From Terriglobus sp. (lineage in GTDB: Bacteria > Acidobacteriota > Terriglobia > Terriglobales > Acidobacteriaceae), in NCBI GenBank assembly GCA_026225595.1, contig JAMFTB010000284.1, forward strand, positions 1 through 35,214: a stretch of 35,214 nt of DNA, read 5' to 3'. Shown one piece after another: positions 14,306 to 19,225 of this stretch (its first letter is position 1; every line of letters begins with the position of its first letter). The notes under the pieces were generated by a model that saw only the letters and a program-made list of their open reading frames with translations, ran no database searches and was not told the DNA's origin. A program made the position numbers and the translations under genes.

Positions 14306-16081
14306 GTGTCCGACAATTTTGCCCAGACCGTAAAAGCTGCCACCGACATTGTGAAGGTGATCGGCGAATACGTGCGTCTGCGCAAGAGCGGCGCGCAAAA
14401 CTTCAGCGGACTGTGTCCCTTCCATCAGGAGAAGTCGCCGTCGTTCAGTGTTAACGCCGCGCACAGCTACTTCTACTGCTTTGGCTGCCACGCCAAGGGC
14501 GACGTGTTCACGTTTGTGCAGCGGATTGAGAACATCAGCTTTCCTGAAGCAGTGCGCACCGTCGCGCAGAAGAGCGGCATCCCGTTGCCCAAGCGCGAAT
14601 GGTCTTCGCCGGAGGAAGCGCAGCAGGCGGGCCTGCGCAAGCAACTTATCGACATCCATGAGGCAGCGACGCAGTATTTTCAGCAGGCATTGCAGTCGCC
14701 GCAGGCAGCGCGCGCGCGTGAGTACCTGAGCAGCCGCACCATGAGTGCGGAGACGGCAACGCTCTTCCGGGTGGGCTACGCGCCCGACGACTTCAACCAC
14801 ATGCGCGAGGCGCTGGGCAAAATCTTCAACGACGAGGTCATGCGGACCAGCGGCCTGTTCTCGTCAAAGGAGCAGAACGACGAAGGCCGGCCCCAAGGTC
14901 AGCTGTATGCGCGTTTTCGCAAACGCATTACCTTTCCCATCTGCAATGAGGCTGGCAAGACCATTGCCTTCACAGCGCGCGCTCTGGATAGCGATGACAA
15001 GAGCGGTCCGAAGTATATGAACTCGCCGGAGACGCCGCTGTATACGAAGGGCCAGGTGCTCTTCAATCTGGATAAGGCGAAGGCATCCATGCGGCAGCAG
15101 GATTACGCGCTGCTGGTGGAAGGGCAGATGGATTGCATCCGCGTCTTTTCGTCGGGCATTCAGCCGGTCATTGCCACCAGCGGCACCGCGTTTACTGAGC
15201 ATCAGGTGCGGCTGCTGTCGCGTTTTACCAAGCGCGTGTCCGTCAATTTTGATCCAGACATTGCGGGCGCGAATGCTGCGGAAAAATCGTTAGCTTTGTT
15301 AACTGAGGCAGAGTTTGAAGTGCGCGTAGTCACGCTTGAGGGCGGCCTGGATCCGGACCGCTTTGTGCAGGAGCATGGCATTGCAGCCTATGCCGATGCG
15401 GTGCGTGCGGCCAAGCCCTACGCGGAGTATTTGATCGAGCGCGCACGCACGCTGTTTCCGCAGCGCACGGCCGAGGCGAAGGTGAAGGCGGTAAATTTTC
15501 TGCTGCCGCACATTCGCCGCCTGCCCTCCAAAATTCATCGTGCGCAGTTTGTGGATGATGCTGCACAGAAGCTGGGCATTGACTCGTCACTGATGCGGCA
15601 GGAGCTGCAGGAGGCTGCGACGCATCGGCTGGAAAGCATCCGCAGCCAGACGCGTGAGTTGGGCGAAAACGAGCGCAAGTTGATCCGTGCCCTGATTTTG
15701 CCGGAGCATGACCCTGCACGGCAGCGTGTTGTAACGGAAGTCACCGCGCGGCCTGAACTGCTGGAAGGCATGGCGACTGCTGACCTGATTGAAGCGCTGG
15801 CTGCAAACGCAATTGGTGACAACCCGCTGGAATCGGCACCCGACGATCGAAGCCGCGAGATGCTGGCACGGCTGCTGAGCCAGGATTCGATGGGCGATCC
15901 GTCGATGATTCTGGTCGAGGCTGGCAACGCACTCCACACGCTGGAGAGAGATCGCCTTGCGCGGCGCAACACGGAACTCAAGATGATGATTGCCGAAGCA
16001 GAACGGCGTGGCGATCAAAGCATGGCGGACCAACTGTACGCGGAAGCGGTGCAGGTGAACCGCGCTCTGCGTACCTTGTAG
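14306..16081 (+). CDS. dnaG: DNA primase DnaG
   Basis: A 591-residue primase that makes RNA primers for lagging-strand replication. The N-terminal zinc-binding domain has C37-P-F-H40 and C58-F-G-C61 (CHC2 type). The catalytic core includes the SGPKYMNSPETPLYTKG motif. The TOPRIM domain contains LLVEGQMDCIRVF with the catalytic Glu and VNFDPDIAGANAAEKS with the metal-binding Asp pair. The last 150 residues are the less conserved helicase-binding region. The start is a GTG at 14306 that opens the family's conserved N-terminus. Unlike the classic rpsU-dnaG-rpoD macromolecular synthesis operon, it is flanked by a cupin and by Rid genes. The first Rid gene follows after 27 bp and may be co-transcribed. 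Confidence 0.97.
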   Translation: MSDNFAQTVKAATDIVKVIGEYVRLRKSGAQNFSGLCPFHQEKSPSFSVNAAHSYFYCFGCHAKGDVFTFVQRIENISFPEAVRTVAQKSGIPLPKREWSSPEEAQQAGLRKQLIDIHEAATQYFQQALQSPQAARAREYLSSRTMSAETATLFRVGYAPDDFNHMREALGKIFNDEVMRTSGLFSSKEQNDEGRPQGQLYARFRKRITFPICNEAGKTIAFTARALDSDDKSGPKYMNSPETPLYTKGQVLFNLDKAKASMRQQDYALLVEGQMDCIRVFSSGIQPVIATSGTAFTEHQVRLLSRFTKRVSVNFDPDIAGANAAEKSLALLTEAEFEVRVVTLEGGLDPDRFVQEHGIAAYADAVRAAKPYAEYLIERARTLFPQRTAEAKVKAVNFLLPHIRRLPSKIHRAQFVDDAAQKLGIDSSLMRQELQEAATHRLESIRSQTRELGENERKLIRALILPEHDPARQRVVTEVTARPELLEGMATADLIEALAANAIGDNPLESAPDDRSREMLARLLSQDSMGDPSMILVEAGNALHTLERDRLARRNTELKMMIAEAERRGDQSMADQLYAEAVQVNRALRTL

Positions 16082-16108
16082 TCAGCGAGTTTTTGGAGGG
16101 ATTGCGCA

Positions 16109-16555
16109 ATGAGTAAGTTGCTTACGCGGCGTTCGTTTGCGGGTTTTGTTTCAGCGGCGTTTGCACCGGTTGCAAGTGCGCAGTCAGCGCTACGCAAGCG
16201 CATCTTTCATGCGGGCGCACCTGCCAACCCGCCTGCGGTGTATTCGCCTGCAGTGGGTTGGGGCAACCTGCTGTTTCTTGCGGGGAAAGGGTCGGGCACA
16301 GCGCCCGATCCAGAGGACATTCGAAACTGCACGCATCATGTGCTGGAATCATTCGCGGTTGAGTTGAAGAATGCAGGCTCGTCGATGGACAAGGTTTTGC
16401 GAGTGACCGTGTACCTGCTCAATCCTGAGGACGTGCCTGCAATGAATGAGGTGTTTGCGCAGCACTTTCCAAAGGACCCGCCCGCGCGCACCACCATCAT
16501 TGTGCGCACGCCGCATCCAACGCTGGTTGAGATGGATTTGATCGCAGGCATTTAG
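16109..16555 (+). CDS. Rid-family protein 1 with twin-arginine signal
   Basis: A 148-residue Rid (YjgF/YER057c/UK114) protein. Residues 1-24 are a probable Tat signal with the twin-arginine segment LTRRSFAGF and a cleavable Ala-rich end (APVASAQ). The Rid domain shows PAVYSPAVGWGNLLFLAGKG, KNAGSSMDKVLRVTVYL, the substrate-carboxylate arginine in PPARTTI and the acidic residue in LVEMDLIAGI. Canonical RidA hydrolyses reactive 2-aminoacrylate imines in the cytoplasm, so an exported form must act on something else or serve another role. GGAGGG precedes the ATG. It is the first of three tandem Rid genes, 27 bp after dnaG. Confidence 0.9.
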   Translation: MSKLLTRRSFAGFVSAAFAPVASAQSALRKRIFHAGAPANPPAVYSPAVGWGNLLFLAGKGSGTAPDPEDIRNCTHHVLESFAVELKNAGSSMDKVLRVTVYLLNPEDVPAMNEVFAQHFPKDPPARTTIIVRTPHPTLVEMDLIAGI

Positions 16556-16578
16556 CGCGACATTCGTTTCCTCATGAT

Positions 16579-16718
16579 TTGTCATCCTGAGCGCAATGAA
16601 GCGAAGCGGAATGAAGTCGAAGGACCTGCATTCCGTTGGTTTGCCATGAAGTTTCCCGATAAGTCAGCAGAATGCAGGTCCTTCGACTGCGCACTTCGTG
16701 CTCCGCTCAGGATGACAA
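16579..16718. repeat. Long imperfect inverted repeat of the CATCCTGAG type
   Basis: Two arms face each other across 36 bp. The inner 18 bp GTCGAAGGACCTGCATTC (16616-16633) is perfectly complementary to 16670-16687. The outer 15 bp TTGTCATCCTGAGCG (16579-16593) is perfectly complementary to 16704-16718. The element fills the gap between the first and second Rid genes. It gives the second Rid ORF a false N-terminal extension in the track. Confidence 0.9.
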
Positions 16719-16783
16719 TTCTAAAAGCAGCTGCGCTATGCTCTGTGTATCCACAACAATCCACAAAAAAGAGAGACCGCCCT

Positions 16784-17236
16784 GTGCCCATGACACGCCG
16801 TATGCTTGCAAGCTCTGCCGTCGTGATTGGTGCGGCCGCCCTCGCTCCGTTTGCCCGCGCCGCCGAGAAGATGCGAAAGAAGGTGCTTGCCTACAACCCC
16901 AACGCAACGCCCAAGCCGCCGTATTCGCCCGCTGTGGCCTATGGCAGCTTGGTGTTCGTCTCCGGCAAGGCGAGCTATGCCGCGTCCGATCCAAAGGACA
17001 TTCGCGTGTGTACGAAGTATGCGCTGGACGAGCTTGCGAAGGAGCTGAAGAACGCCGGCTCCAGCATGGACAATGTGCTGAAGGTGCAGGTGTTTCTGCG
17101 CAACATCGATGACTACGCGGCCATGAACGAAATATTCTCCGCCACCTTCGTCAAAGAACCGCCCACGCGTACCACTGTGGCCGCGATCATTCCGCGCGAC
17201 AGCCTGGTGGAGATTGATGCCATCGCGTTTATCTAA
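16784..17236 (+). CDS. Rid-family protein 2 with twin-arginine signal
   Basis: The track ORF (220 aa) begins inside the inverted repeat, and the true protein is about 150 residues. GAGAG at 16771-16775 is well spaced for the GTG at 16784 (reading MPMTRRMLASS). The ATG at 16790 is the alternative. The TRRMLASSAVV segment followed by a hydrophobic stretch and FARAAE is a probable Tat signal. The Rid domain is complete: PPYSPAVAYGSLVFVSGKAS, KNAGSSMDNVLKVQVFL, the substrate arginine in PPTRTTV, and LVEIDAIAFI. It closely resembles its neighbours, so the cluster arose by duplication. The function outside the cytoplasm is unknown. Confidence 0.88.
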   Translation: MPMTRRMLASSAVVIGAAALAPFARAAEKMRKKVLAYNPNATPKPPYSPAVAYGSLVFVSGKASYAASDPKDIRVCTKYALDELAKELKNAGSSMDNVLKVQVFLRNIDDYAAMNEIFSATFVKEPPTRTTVAAIIPRDSLVEIDAIAFI

Positions 17237-17281
17237 CCTCGATTTGATTTACGAAAACCAAACAAGAGAAGAGTCCTATTC

Positions 17282-17668
17282 ATGTCGAACGAAAGCACGC
17301 CACTTACTCGCGAATTTTTCAGTGCGGCGCAGCCGTCGCCCAACGCGCACATCTACACGCCCGTGGTTGGCTTTGGCCAGCTGCTGTTTCTTGCGGGCAA
17401 AACATCTGCCAAGGCTCCAGACCCAGCGGATGTGCGTAGCTGCACGACGTATGTACTGGACGAGATTGAGAAGGAGCTGATCGCCGCCGGATCAAGCATG
17501 CAGCAGGTGGTGAAGGTGACCGTGTACCTGCGGCACATTGAGGAGTGGGCGGCGATGAACGAAGCTTACGTTGGTCGCTTTGGAGCGAACCCGCCGGCGC
17601 GCACCACCATCGCCGCCATTCTGCCGCATGAAAGCCGCGTAGAGATTGAAGTTATCGCGCATCGCTAG
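17282..17668 (+). CDS. Rid-family protein 3, cytoplasmic form
   Basis: A 128-residue Rid protein without a signal peptide, the usual length for cytoplasmic RidA. It has IYTPVVGFGQLLFLAGKTS, AAGSSMQQVVKVTVYL, the conserved substrate arginine in PPARTTI and the Glu in RVEIEVIAHR. It is therefore the best candidate in the cluster for imine/enamine deaminase activity, although subfamily assignment would need an alignment. AAGAGAAGAG precedes the ATG, and the gene follows the second Rid gene by 45 bp. Its TAG stop overlaps by one base the start of a terminator hairpin that belongs to repeat copy 2. Confidence 0.92.
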   Translation: MSNESTPLTREFFSAAQPSPNAHIYTPVVGFGQLLFLAGKTSAKAPDPADVRSCTTYVLDEIEKELIAAGSSMQQVVKVTVYLRHIEEWAAMNEAYVGRFGANPPARTTIAAILPHESRVEIEVIAHR

Positions 17669-17828
17669 GCGTTCACACGCCCTTTTCTGCTTCGCGTTGG
17701 CTCTCCCGATGGTCGAGATGAAATGCAGCGATGAACTTGATCCCCGACCAACGGAAGGGGCAAGGCGAAGCCAGTAAAAAGGTGCGTGAGCACCCGCCCC
17801 GCGCGTAGCGGGCCCGTCCGGCAGGACA
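17668..17828. repeat. Palindromic repeat PR1, copy 2, left end missing
   Basis: This 161-bp copy has the same orientation as copy 1. The right arm is nearly identical to copy 1 over about 50 bp (GTAAAAAGGTGCGTGAGCAC to GGCAGGACA). The left outer end is absent. The copy starts at the terminator hairpin GGCGT-TCAC-ACGCC-CTTTT, whose first base is the last base of the Rid 3 stop codon. The central inverted repeat (TCCCGATGGTCG with CCGACCAACGGA) is retained. Confidence 0.85.
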
Positions 17829-17873
17829 TGTTCATTTCACGATTCACAACGCAGAATCCGGCAGAATAAACGT

Positions 17874-18476
17874 ATGAGTGAGAGTGGAACCAAGCACGCA
17901 GAGCTGTGGCTGTTTCGCCATGGCGAGACGGAATGGTCGTTGAATGGTAAGCACACCAGCTACACGGAGCTGCCGCTGACCGCGCACGGCTGCGAACAGG
18001 CAAAGGCGCTCGCGCCGGTGGTGGCTGCGCAGCATTTTGATCTGGTGCTGACCAGTCCGCGCCAGCGCGCGCAGGAGACGGCAAAGCTGGCCGGAGCAAC
18101 CGGCGCGGTAATTGAGCCGAATCTACAGGAGTGGAACTACGGCGAGTTTGAGGGCCTGAGCACGCCGGAGATTCAGGCGACGCATCCGCACTGGAGCGTG
18201 TGGCAGAACCCCATCACCGGCGGTGAATCAGTGGATGAAGTGGCCGCGCGCGCGGCAGCGGTCATTGACCGCTGCATTCAGCACGGCGGCCAGTGCGCGT
18301 TGTTTGCGCATGCGCACATCTTTCGCATTTTGACGGCGGTGTGGGTGGAGCAGCCGGGCGTGTTTGGTCAGCGGCTGGCGTTGTCGACCGCGTCGGTCAG
18401 CGTCCTTGGGTGGGAGCACGGAACTCGCGTCATTAACCGCTGGAACGAGATGCCAGCGCCTGCGGCCGTAGAGTAA
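17874..18476 (+). CDS. Histidine phosphatase superfamily protein (phosphoglycerate mutase-like)
   Basis: A 200-residue member of the histidine phosphatase superfamily. The catalytic RHG motif is in LWLFRHGETEWSLNGKHTS, the second arginine is in LTSPRQRAQETA, the catalytic Glu region is LQEWNYGEFEGL, and the second His is in CALFAHAHIFRIL. The length and motifs fit the small GpmB/CobC-like branch, whose members dephosphorylate varied metabolites. The exact substrate cannot be told. It is separated from the Rid genes by the repeat and its terminator, so it probably starts a new transcript that may include the next small gene 27 bp downstream. Confidence 0.92.
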   Translation: MSESGTKHAELWLFRHGETEWSLNGKHTSYTELPLTAHGCEQAKALAPVVAAQHFDLVLTSPRQRAQETAKLAGATGAVIEPNLQEWNYGEFEGLSTPEIQATHPHWSVWQNPITGGESVDEVAARAAAVIDRCIQHGGQCALFAHAHIFRILTAVWVEQPGVFGQRLALSTASVSVLGWEHGTRVINRWNEMPAPAAVE

Positions 18477-18503
18477 ATCGCCTGCAGGCGTAAAATAAAT
18501 GCA

Positions 18504-18728
18504 ATGTGCAACTGCGGCCATGACGAACTGAACCAGGCGAAGGATCTGCAGCGGCGCGCACAGCGTGCCGTGATGATGGTCCTGTTCCTTGCGCCGATTC
18601 AGTTGATCGCTGGTAAGGGCCATACACCTGTGATCTGGACGGTGTTGGCGGTCCAGGTTGTATTGGTCTCACTGGCGTTTTGGTTCGCCGCACAACGCCG
18701 CCGCATCCTCTGCGGCGAAGCCCGCTAA
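18504..18728 (+). CDS. Small two-helix membrane protein, unknown
   Basis: A 74-residue protein beginning MCNCGHDELNQAKDLQRR. It has two hydrophobic segments (VMMVLFLAPIQLIAG and VIWTVLAVQVVLVSLAFWFA) and a basic C-terminus (AAQRRRILCGEAR). The CNCGH near the start may bind a metal. I do not recognise the family. It lies between the phosphatase and dut on the same strand with short gaps, which supports translation. There is no strong ribosome-binding site. Confidence 0.6.
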   Translation: MCNCGHDELNQAKDLQRRAQRAVMMVLFLAPIQLIAGKGHTPVIWTVLAVQVVLVSLAFWFAAQRRRILCGEAR

Positions 18729-18793
18729 AGTCCCCCACGATTTCCGCACAGCGGACGGCTTTTCAACTGCGGCGGATTGCCTAATCTGAAGTG

Positions 18794-19225
18794 ATGCCAC
18801 ACATTCCCACCAAGCGCCTGCACCCTGACGCCCGCATTCCCAAGTACGCACACACAGGCCCCTGGGGCGATCTTGCCGCTGACCTGTACAGCGTTCACGA
18901 AGCAACGGTGCAGCCGCGGCAGACGTCGCTGGTAGCCACTGGATTGGCAATGGCCTTTCCTGAGGACTACGGCGCGCTGGTGGAAGATCGCAGCGGACTT
19001 GCGGTGAAGGGCATCACCACGTTGGCTGGGGTGATTGACCCCGGCTATCGCGGCGAGCTGAAGGTAGTGCTCACCAACGTGACCGACGCACCCATTACGC
19101 TGGCCGCGGGTGACCGCGTGGCGCAGCTGCGCATTGTGCAGAAGCTGCAGGCGACGTTTGAAGAGGTGGACGACCTGGACGCGACGCATCGCGGCGACGG
19201 CGGCTTCGGTTCTACAGGCGCATAA
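18794..19225 (+). CDS. dut: dUTP diphosphatase (dUTPase)
   Basis: A 143-residue trimeric-type dUTPase that hydrolyses dUTP to dUMP and pyrophosphate, keeping uracil out of DNA and feeding thymidylate synthesis. All five family motifs are present in order: AADLYS, EDRSGLAVKG, GVIDPGYRGELKVVLTN, GDRVAQLRIV, and the C-terminal RGDGGFGSTG that closes the active site. The ATG at 18794 is preferred over the overlapping GTG at 18791. The gene ends 18 bp before repeat copy 3, whose left arm gives it a terminator. Confidence 0.96.
   Translation: MPHIPTKRLHPDARIPKYAHTGPWGDLAADLYSVHEATVQPRQTSLVATGLAMAFPEDYGALVEDRSGLAVKGITTLAGVIDPGYRGELKVVLTNVTDAPITLAAGDRVAQLRIVQKLQATFEEVDDLDATHRGDGGFGSTGA

Follow-up and report, generated by a model that had tools for sequence, protein, structure and literature searches.

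A tandem of Rid genes behind dnaG in a Terriglobus-related acidobacterium: two predicted Tat-exported imine/enamine deaminases and one signal-less copy

Rid proteins are known to protect PLP enzymes in the cytoplasm, and across the superfamily they are built as homotrimers with the active sites between the subunits. Their closest described functional settings are of several kinds. An Arg at position 105 is the criterion for the imine-hydrolysing groups RidA and Rid1-3 (PMC4433059), and RutC exemplifies a Rid enzyme that accelerates a step within a catabolic operon (PMC8113886). Among PLP enzymes, DgaE removes ammonia via an enamine intermediate, the wild type releasing the imino product and the H163A mutant the free enamine (PMC9529869), and PvdN and PtaA of pseudomonads are established Tat-exported PLP enzymes (PMC6206403). 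Exported Rids are not described in the open-access papers searched; two candidate reports were set aside as unrelated, one listing L-PSP among released Asaia proteins without a signal, the other a TatC paper in which yjgF merely stands within a gene list.

The Rid cassette and its setting

The window, by which we mean the whole stretch of 35,214 nucleotides that was analysed, corresponds to contig C163 in a draft genome of 3.08 Mb, about 81% complete, from a soil acidobacterium grouped with Terriglobus, the nearest named relative found being Terriglobus roseus DSM 18391. It contains three Rid (PF01042) genes in tandem, the first starting 27 bp 3' of the dnaG stop, in the order dnaG, rid1, rid2, rid3, histidine phosphatase and dut. 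The neighbours of this cassette are housekeeping genes, and dnaG itself is present in a single copy with 83% identity to that of T. roseus. The features are as follows.

14306..16081, + strand: dnaG (DNA primase), with the Pfam domains Zn_ribbon_DnaG, DNAG_N, Toprim and DnaB_bind
16095..16100, + strand: likely ribosome binding site of rid1, GGAGGG, read in the sequence 8 nt 5' of the ATG
16109..16555, + strand: rid1, 148 aa, Rid protein with a predicted Tat signal (PF01042; AlphaFold model; R105, E120, Y17)
16109..16180, + strand: predicted Tat signal of rid1, MSKLLTRRSFAGFVSAAFAPVASA (RR, h-region, AxA)
16576..16721, no strand assigned: REP-like palindromic element (TGTCATCCTGAGCG...) between rid1 and rid2 (inverted repeats I1, I2)
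16790..17236, + strand: rid2, 148 aa, Rid protein with a predicted Tat signal (PF01042; orthologues)
16790..16861, + strand: predicted Tat signal of rid2, MTRRMLASSAVVIGAAALAPFARA (RR, h-region, AxA; RR invariant across orthologues)
17282..17668, + strand: rid3, 128 aa, without a signal and predicted to be cytoplasmic (PF01042; signal-less clade with orthologues)
17874..18476, + strand: histidine phosphatase (PF00300, 159 bits), downstream boundary of the cassette, which it also flanks in relatives
18791..19225, + strand: dut (dUTPase; PF00692), downstream neighbour conserved in synteny

A search for a sigma-70-type promoter in 15900-18900 found none, an absence that carries little weight.

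The PF01042 scores of 60.5 (rid1), 76.1 (rid2) and 69.7 bits (rid3), against a cut-off of 27.3, place all three proteins in the superfamily, and together with the N-termini they bear out the preliminary description of three tandem Rid genes, two with Tat signals and one without. Identity to rid1 is 51% for rid2 and 47% for rid3. With an E. coli RidA sequence as the yardstick for residue numbering and identity, rid1 is 25% identical to RidA, and Arg105, Glu120, Asn88 and Tyr17 are present in all three proteins, so that the substrate arginine and late Glu read in them earlier are confirmed by alignment. Position 105 is likewise Arg in every exported relative aligned; by this residue rid1, rid2 and rid3 fall with the imine-hydrolysing groups, their deaminase activity itself being predicted. 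The three do not reach the subfamily models: they score 57.8, 75.3 and 66.5 bits against the cut-off of 106.25 for TIGR00004 (RidA subfamily), and 40.8, 55.2 and 34.1 bits against 169 for TIGR03610 (RutC). We rejected the view that they are ordinary RidA copies, given the TIGR00004 scores and a clade apart from the genome's own canonical RidA, which is located elsewhere, at C80. The AlphaFold model of the rid1 monomer (pLDDT 85) is matched by RutC/YjgF structures with E about 1e-11 and TM about 0.8, which points to a YjgF-type fold; the low pLDDT at residues 1-5 and 11-15 falls within the predicted signal.

The setting of the cassette was surveyed in those 18 congeneric genomes that yielded a dnaG gene. 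Rid genes lie between dnaG and the histidine phosphatase in 6/18, of which three have rid1 with a rid3 relative, two have rid2 with rid3, and the window genome, alone among the 18, has all three. A pair of a signal-bearing and a signal-less gene is kept in 6/6 cassette genomes, as are intact reading frames and Arg105. These six are also the genomes with the highest dnaG identity, G133 and G134 standing at 79%. At the same place, G134 (L200:581-1477) and G133 (L201:3447-4343) carry an unrelated ORF of ~298 aa. The placement after dnaG, earlier called unusual, is a lineage-specific insertion, and there is no sign of a link with primase function, which we rejected because other genomes of the genus hold different genes at that site. 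Orthologues of rid2 that are 84% identical occur in T. roseus DSM 18391 (G123) and G124, and the neighbours of stand-alone rid2 orthologues are inconsistent, with an aminotransferase class IV gene in G031 and unrelated genes elsewhere.

Export signals and ancestry

Tat signals were called by a simple home-made rule (RR, an uncharged hydrophobic stretch and an AxA site), which the N-termini of rid1 and rid2 pass and that of rid3 fails; composition-preserving shuffles of the two N-termini pass it in 4.7% and 2.4% of cases, respectively. The leaders of rid2 orthologues (MTRRTLAS, MTRRMLAS, MTRRSLAA, MTRRWFAA, LTRRLFAT) have an invariant RR while the remainder varies, and the RR recurs in dozens of related proteins whose leaders otherwise diverge. 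Orthologues of rid1 keep TRRSFA with a weaker h-region, the leader being short and weakly hydrophobic in G031, G095 and G126. The start of rid2 was placed at or near 16790, since in the orthologues a stop closes the frame just 5-8 codons 5' of MTRR and the extra frame of the mechanical 220-aa ORF (back to 16574), which we rejected, consists of the REP-like palindrome, an element to which at least 65 genomic sites are related, against 0 for the reversed control. As for starts downstream of the signals, by which export might have been undone, rid1 has no alternative start codon between the RR and the Rid domain, and the Met at the internal ATG of rid2 (codon 28) is not conserved among orthologues.

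TatC is encoded in the window genome (PF00902, 230.7 bits, G000:C228), and with the signals it supports folded Tat export as the natural reading, as first proposed; export of rid1 and rid2 is likely. Two further Rids of the genome (G000:C189:17522-17887 and G000:C118:6474-6821) have Sec-type leaders and Arg105/Glu120-type motifs, which brings the proteins with predicted export signals to 4/6 of its Rids; the impression that exported Rids are exceptional in it was not supported.

A maximum-likelihood tree was built from the Rid domains with leaders removed, which left only 119 usable columns. In it the proteins of rid3 type group as a single clade (91/79), with rid1 as its sister (89/75) and then rid2 (91/89), and all three are nested within a large Tat-signal Rid clade of Acidobacteriota and Bacteroidota. 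The location label needs only two changes on this tree, whose inner-branch support is moderate. This nesting argues that the exported state is ancestral and that the cytoplasmic rid3 is probably, with moderate support, a derived copy that lost its signal once, an order opposite to the earlier picture of cytoplasmic Rids that were duplicated and then relocated outward, which the tree does not bear out. All three genes are under purifying selection, with dN/dS of 0.09-0.16 against close orthologues (dnaG, 0.10). Glu120 is lost in the rid3 orthologues of five other genomes and kept in rid3 of the window.

PLP enzymes beside the wider exported clade

A scan of species genomes with a family alignment gave 280 relatives; the best 80 of these are nearly all from Acidobacteriota, with a few from Bacteroidota, and most have an RR leader. 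In most of the Terriglobus operons found, a Tat-Rid of the wider clade is flanked by two Tat-signal PLP genes that resemble DgaE, and within the genus this Rid occurs in 10/12 DgaE-positive and 0/7 DgaE-negative genomes (Fisher 7e-4). At the level of the family, a Rid gene lies no more than 1 kb away from 23/47 DgaE-like genes, an adjacency whose chance occurrence, at 6-9 Rid genes per genome, we estimate at <1%; the remaining half of those sampled have none within that distance. The Rids near DgaE-like genes are of three kinds, namely two Tat groups and Sec-leader proteins in which the Rid domain occurs two or three times. Exported multidomain proteins of this build are encoded next to DgaE-like or Tat-Rid genes at L080:4872-5951, L240:5294-6523 and L241:6231-7487. 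Within the DNA examined, a DgaE-like gene is present in 20 of the best 80 loci, so this neighbourhood is not the sole context of the clade. A second context is seen at L075, L081, L084 and 13 loci besides, in genomes of Bryobacterales type, where the Tat-Rid lies near a putative nadD-like gene, often with a two-component system, and not near a DgaE-like gene.

These neighbours are called no more than DgaE-like, because they score 194 and 193 bits against the TIGR01437 cut-off of 385 and because, of the 81 aligned proteins, 81 keep the PLP lysine Lys213 and none keeps His162 or His163. Their loci recurrently contain exported amidohydrolases of the DgaE-partner type, RraA-like proteins, lactonases and FAD (BBE) enzymes. 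On plasmid pACIX902 of Granulicella tundricola (L307:3807-12180) the annotated row reads RraA, PLP enzyme, RidA-family Rid, PLP enzyme, amidohydrolase, lactonase and BBE oxidase, the last with no evident signal, and this row suggests an extracytoplasmic pathway for amino-sugar acids; its DgaE-like PLP enzymes adjoin WP_013582117.1. An operon of a Bacteroidota genome (Cyclobacteriaceae MAG, L132:2632-7672) holds an exported amidohydrolase, a transporter of the bile-acid-symporter type, an RraA-like protein, a Tat-Rid and a Tat DgaE-like enzyme.

The logic of the wider clade is not simply transferable to the triplet, since searches for DgaE-like genes gave no match in the window genome (81% complete) or the cassette carriers G095, G126 and G031. 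The window genome does encode three class-V aminotransferase-fold PLP enzymes with Tat leaders (C41, C10, C135), and in the relatives that carry the cassette there are one or two per genome; these enzymes may be the partners of the window Rids. In G095 and G126 (L266:804-2514, L269:1381-3046) a signal-less Rid gene lies directly 5' of a Tat-signal class-V PLP enzyme.

Proposed function and comparison with known systems

The best explanation, and one that we consider somewhat probable, is that rid1 and rid2 are Tat-exported imine/enamine deaminases acting outside the cytoplasm and that rid3 is a re-internalised copy. The exported Rid would fold in the cytoplasm and then be moved by Tat, and its RidA-type pocket, in which Arg105 would bind the carboxylate together with Tyr17 and Glu120, would turn an alpha-imino or 2-aminoacrylate-type product, by hydrolysis, into a keto acid with release of ammonia. 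This substrate would be supplied by an exported PLP enzyme, namely a DgaE-like ammonia lyase in the wider relatives and perhaps a Tat class-V PLP enzyme in the window genome, and rid3 would deal with this intermediate once it had leaked or been taken up. DgaE-like enzymes would release a reactive enamine outside the cytoplasm, the removal of which by the exported Rid could either speed the pathway, as has been argued for RutC (PMC8113886), or protect exported PLP enzymes; it may also be that another residue replaces His163 as proton donor, or that the DgaE-like reaction differs. Gene identities, signals, residues, synteny and the DgaE-like association in relatives were observed here, as was, with moderate support, the polarity of signal loss; actual export, deaminase activity, partner enzyme and substrate are inferences. 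The extracytoplasmic imine or enamine proposed in the preliminary description is supported as the best explanation because wider relatives adjoin Tat-signal PLP enzymes. The need for such a catalyst is not obvious, since for small imines and enamines spontaneous hydrolysis is a matter of seconds (PMC9529869).

Several other explanations start from the same observations. The imine might come from a non-PLP exported oxidase (an FAD amine oxidase or dehydrogenase), given that Rid genes elsewhere cluster with FAD amine oxidases (PMC4433059), that Rid proteins hydrolyse the imines these form (PMC5619798) and that FAD (BBE) genes occur within the relatives' operons, but the surroundings of the cassette revealed no exported amine oxidase, and we regard such a source as unlikely. 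A periplasmic holdase, activated by stress or chlorine and keeping envelope proteins soluble in acidic soil, would dispense with a small-molecule substrate altogether; RidA has been described as a holdase activated by N-chlorination and acidophiles have been noted for redundant ridA genes (PMC10490939), and the genome has many Rid paralogues. We hold this role to be decidedly unlikely, because a holdase would require neither the Arg105 that is invariant in every exported Rid examined nor the tie of the wider clade to specific PLP enzyme genes.

Two further accounts deny the cassette a specific extracytoplasmic function. That the triplet is what remains, in decay, of a DgaE-like operon since lost, its Rids hitch-hiking behind dnaG without a specific substrate, would fit the absence of DgaE-like enzymes from 4/6 cassette genomes, the differential loss of Rid copies among them and the loss of Glu120 in rid3 orthologues; it is very unlikely in view of dN/dS values similar to that of dnaG in all three genes, and of the frames, Arg105 and the pairing of a signal-bearing with a signal-less gene that persist in 6/6 genomes. 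We judge it highly improbable that the RR N-termini are non-functional and all three proteins ordinary cytoplasmic paralogues: 2-5% of shuffled N-termini pass our home-made rule, rid1 orthologues have weak h-regions and rid2 has its internal ATG, but the RR is invariant among rid2 orthologues and recurs across relatives with divergent leaders, and neither the rid1 frame nor the unconserved codon-28 Met of rid2 favours a start past the signal.

Beyond the explanation that we prefer, of exported deaminases and a re-internalised copy, a broader reading is possible and is offered tentatively: Acidobacteria and some Bacteroidota may run an extracytoplasmic PLP-lyase pathway, of which the dnaG triplet would be a spin-off with one copy back in the cytoplasm. 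Its parts would be an exported deacetylase, DgaE-like ammonia lyases and Rid, joined in some operons by an exported RraA-like aldolase and a lactonase, with Rid turning the enamine or imine into a keto acid, plausibly for amino-sugar acids. Within this broader reading, the loss of the proton-donating His163 would lead the exported DgaE-like lyases to release free enamine, and lyases without the His that prevents such release should depend on a Rid partner. If true, the control of metabolite damage, or the hydrolysis of imines as one step of a pathway, would extend to the cell envelope; the relatives, among which the exported branch is widespread and often adjoins exported PLP enzymes, suggest that this clean-up chemistry operates beyond the cytoplasm too. 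Fold, probable chemistry and Tat export are each already known; their combination in a lineage of exported Rids associated with exported PLP lyases is not described in the Rid papers and open-access literature searched.

PvdN and PtaA are folded PLP enzymes that are Tat-exported and active in the periplasm, but they serve siderophore tailoring, and the part of the source that describes them mentions no Rid partner (PMC6206403). The DgaE-like neighbours of the wider clade keep Lys213 of DgaE, from which they differ in their Tat signals, in the missing His162 and His163, and in scores below the family cut-off. RutC resembles the window Rids in the role proposed for them, in which the substrate comes from a neighbouring pathway enzyme, and is the best structural match of the rid1 model, but it is cytoplasmic and belongs to another pathway, and the window proteins score below its cut-off. 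The RidA subfamily (YjgF/UK114; E. coli RidA, TdcF; 2-iminobutanoate/2-iminopropanoate deaminase) has the fold and Arg105, Glu120, Tyr17 and Asn88 in common with the window Rids; unlike its members, rid1 and rid2 bear Tat signals, and the window Rids form a separate clade with scores below the subfamily cut-off.
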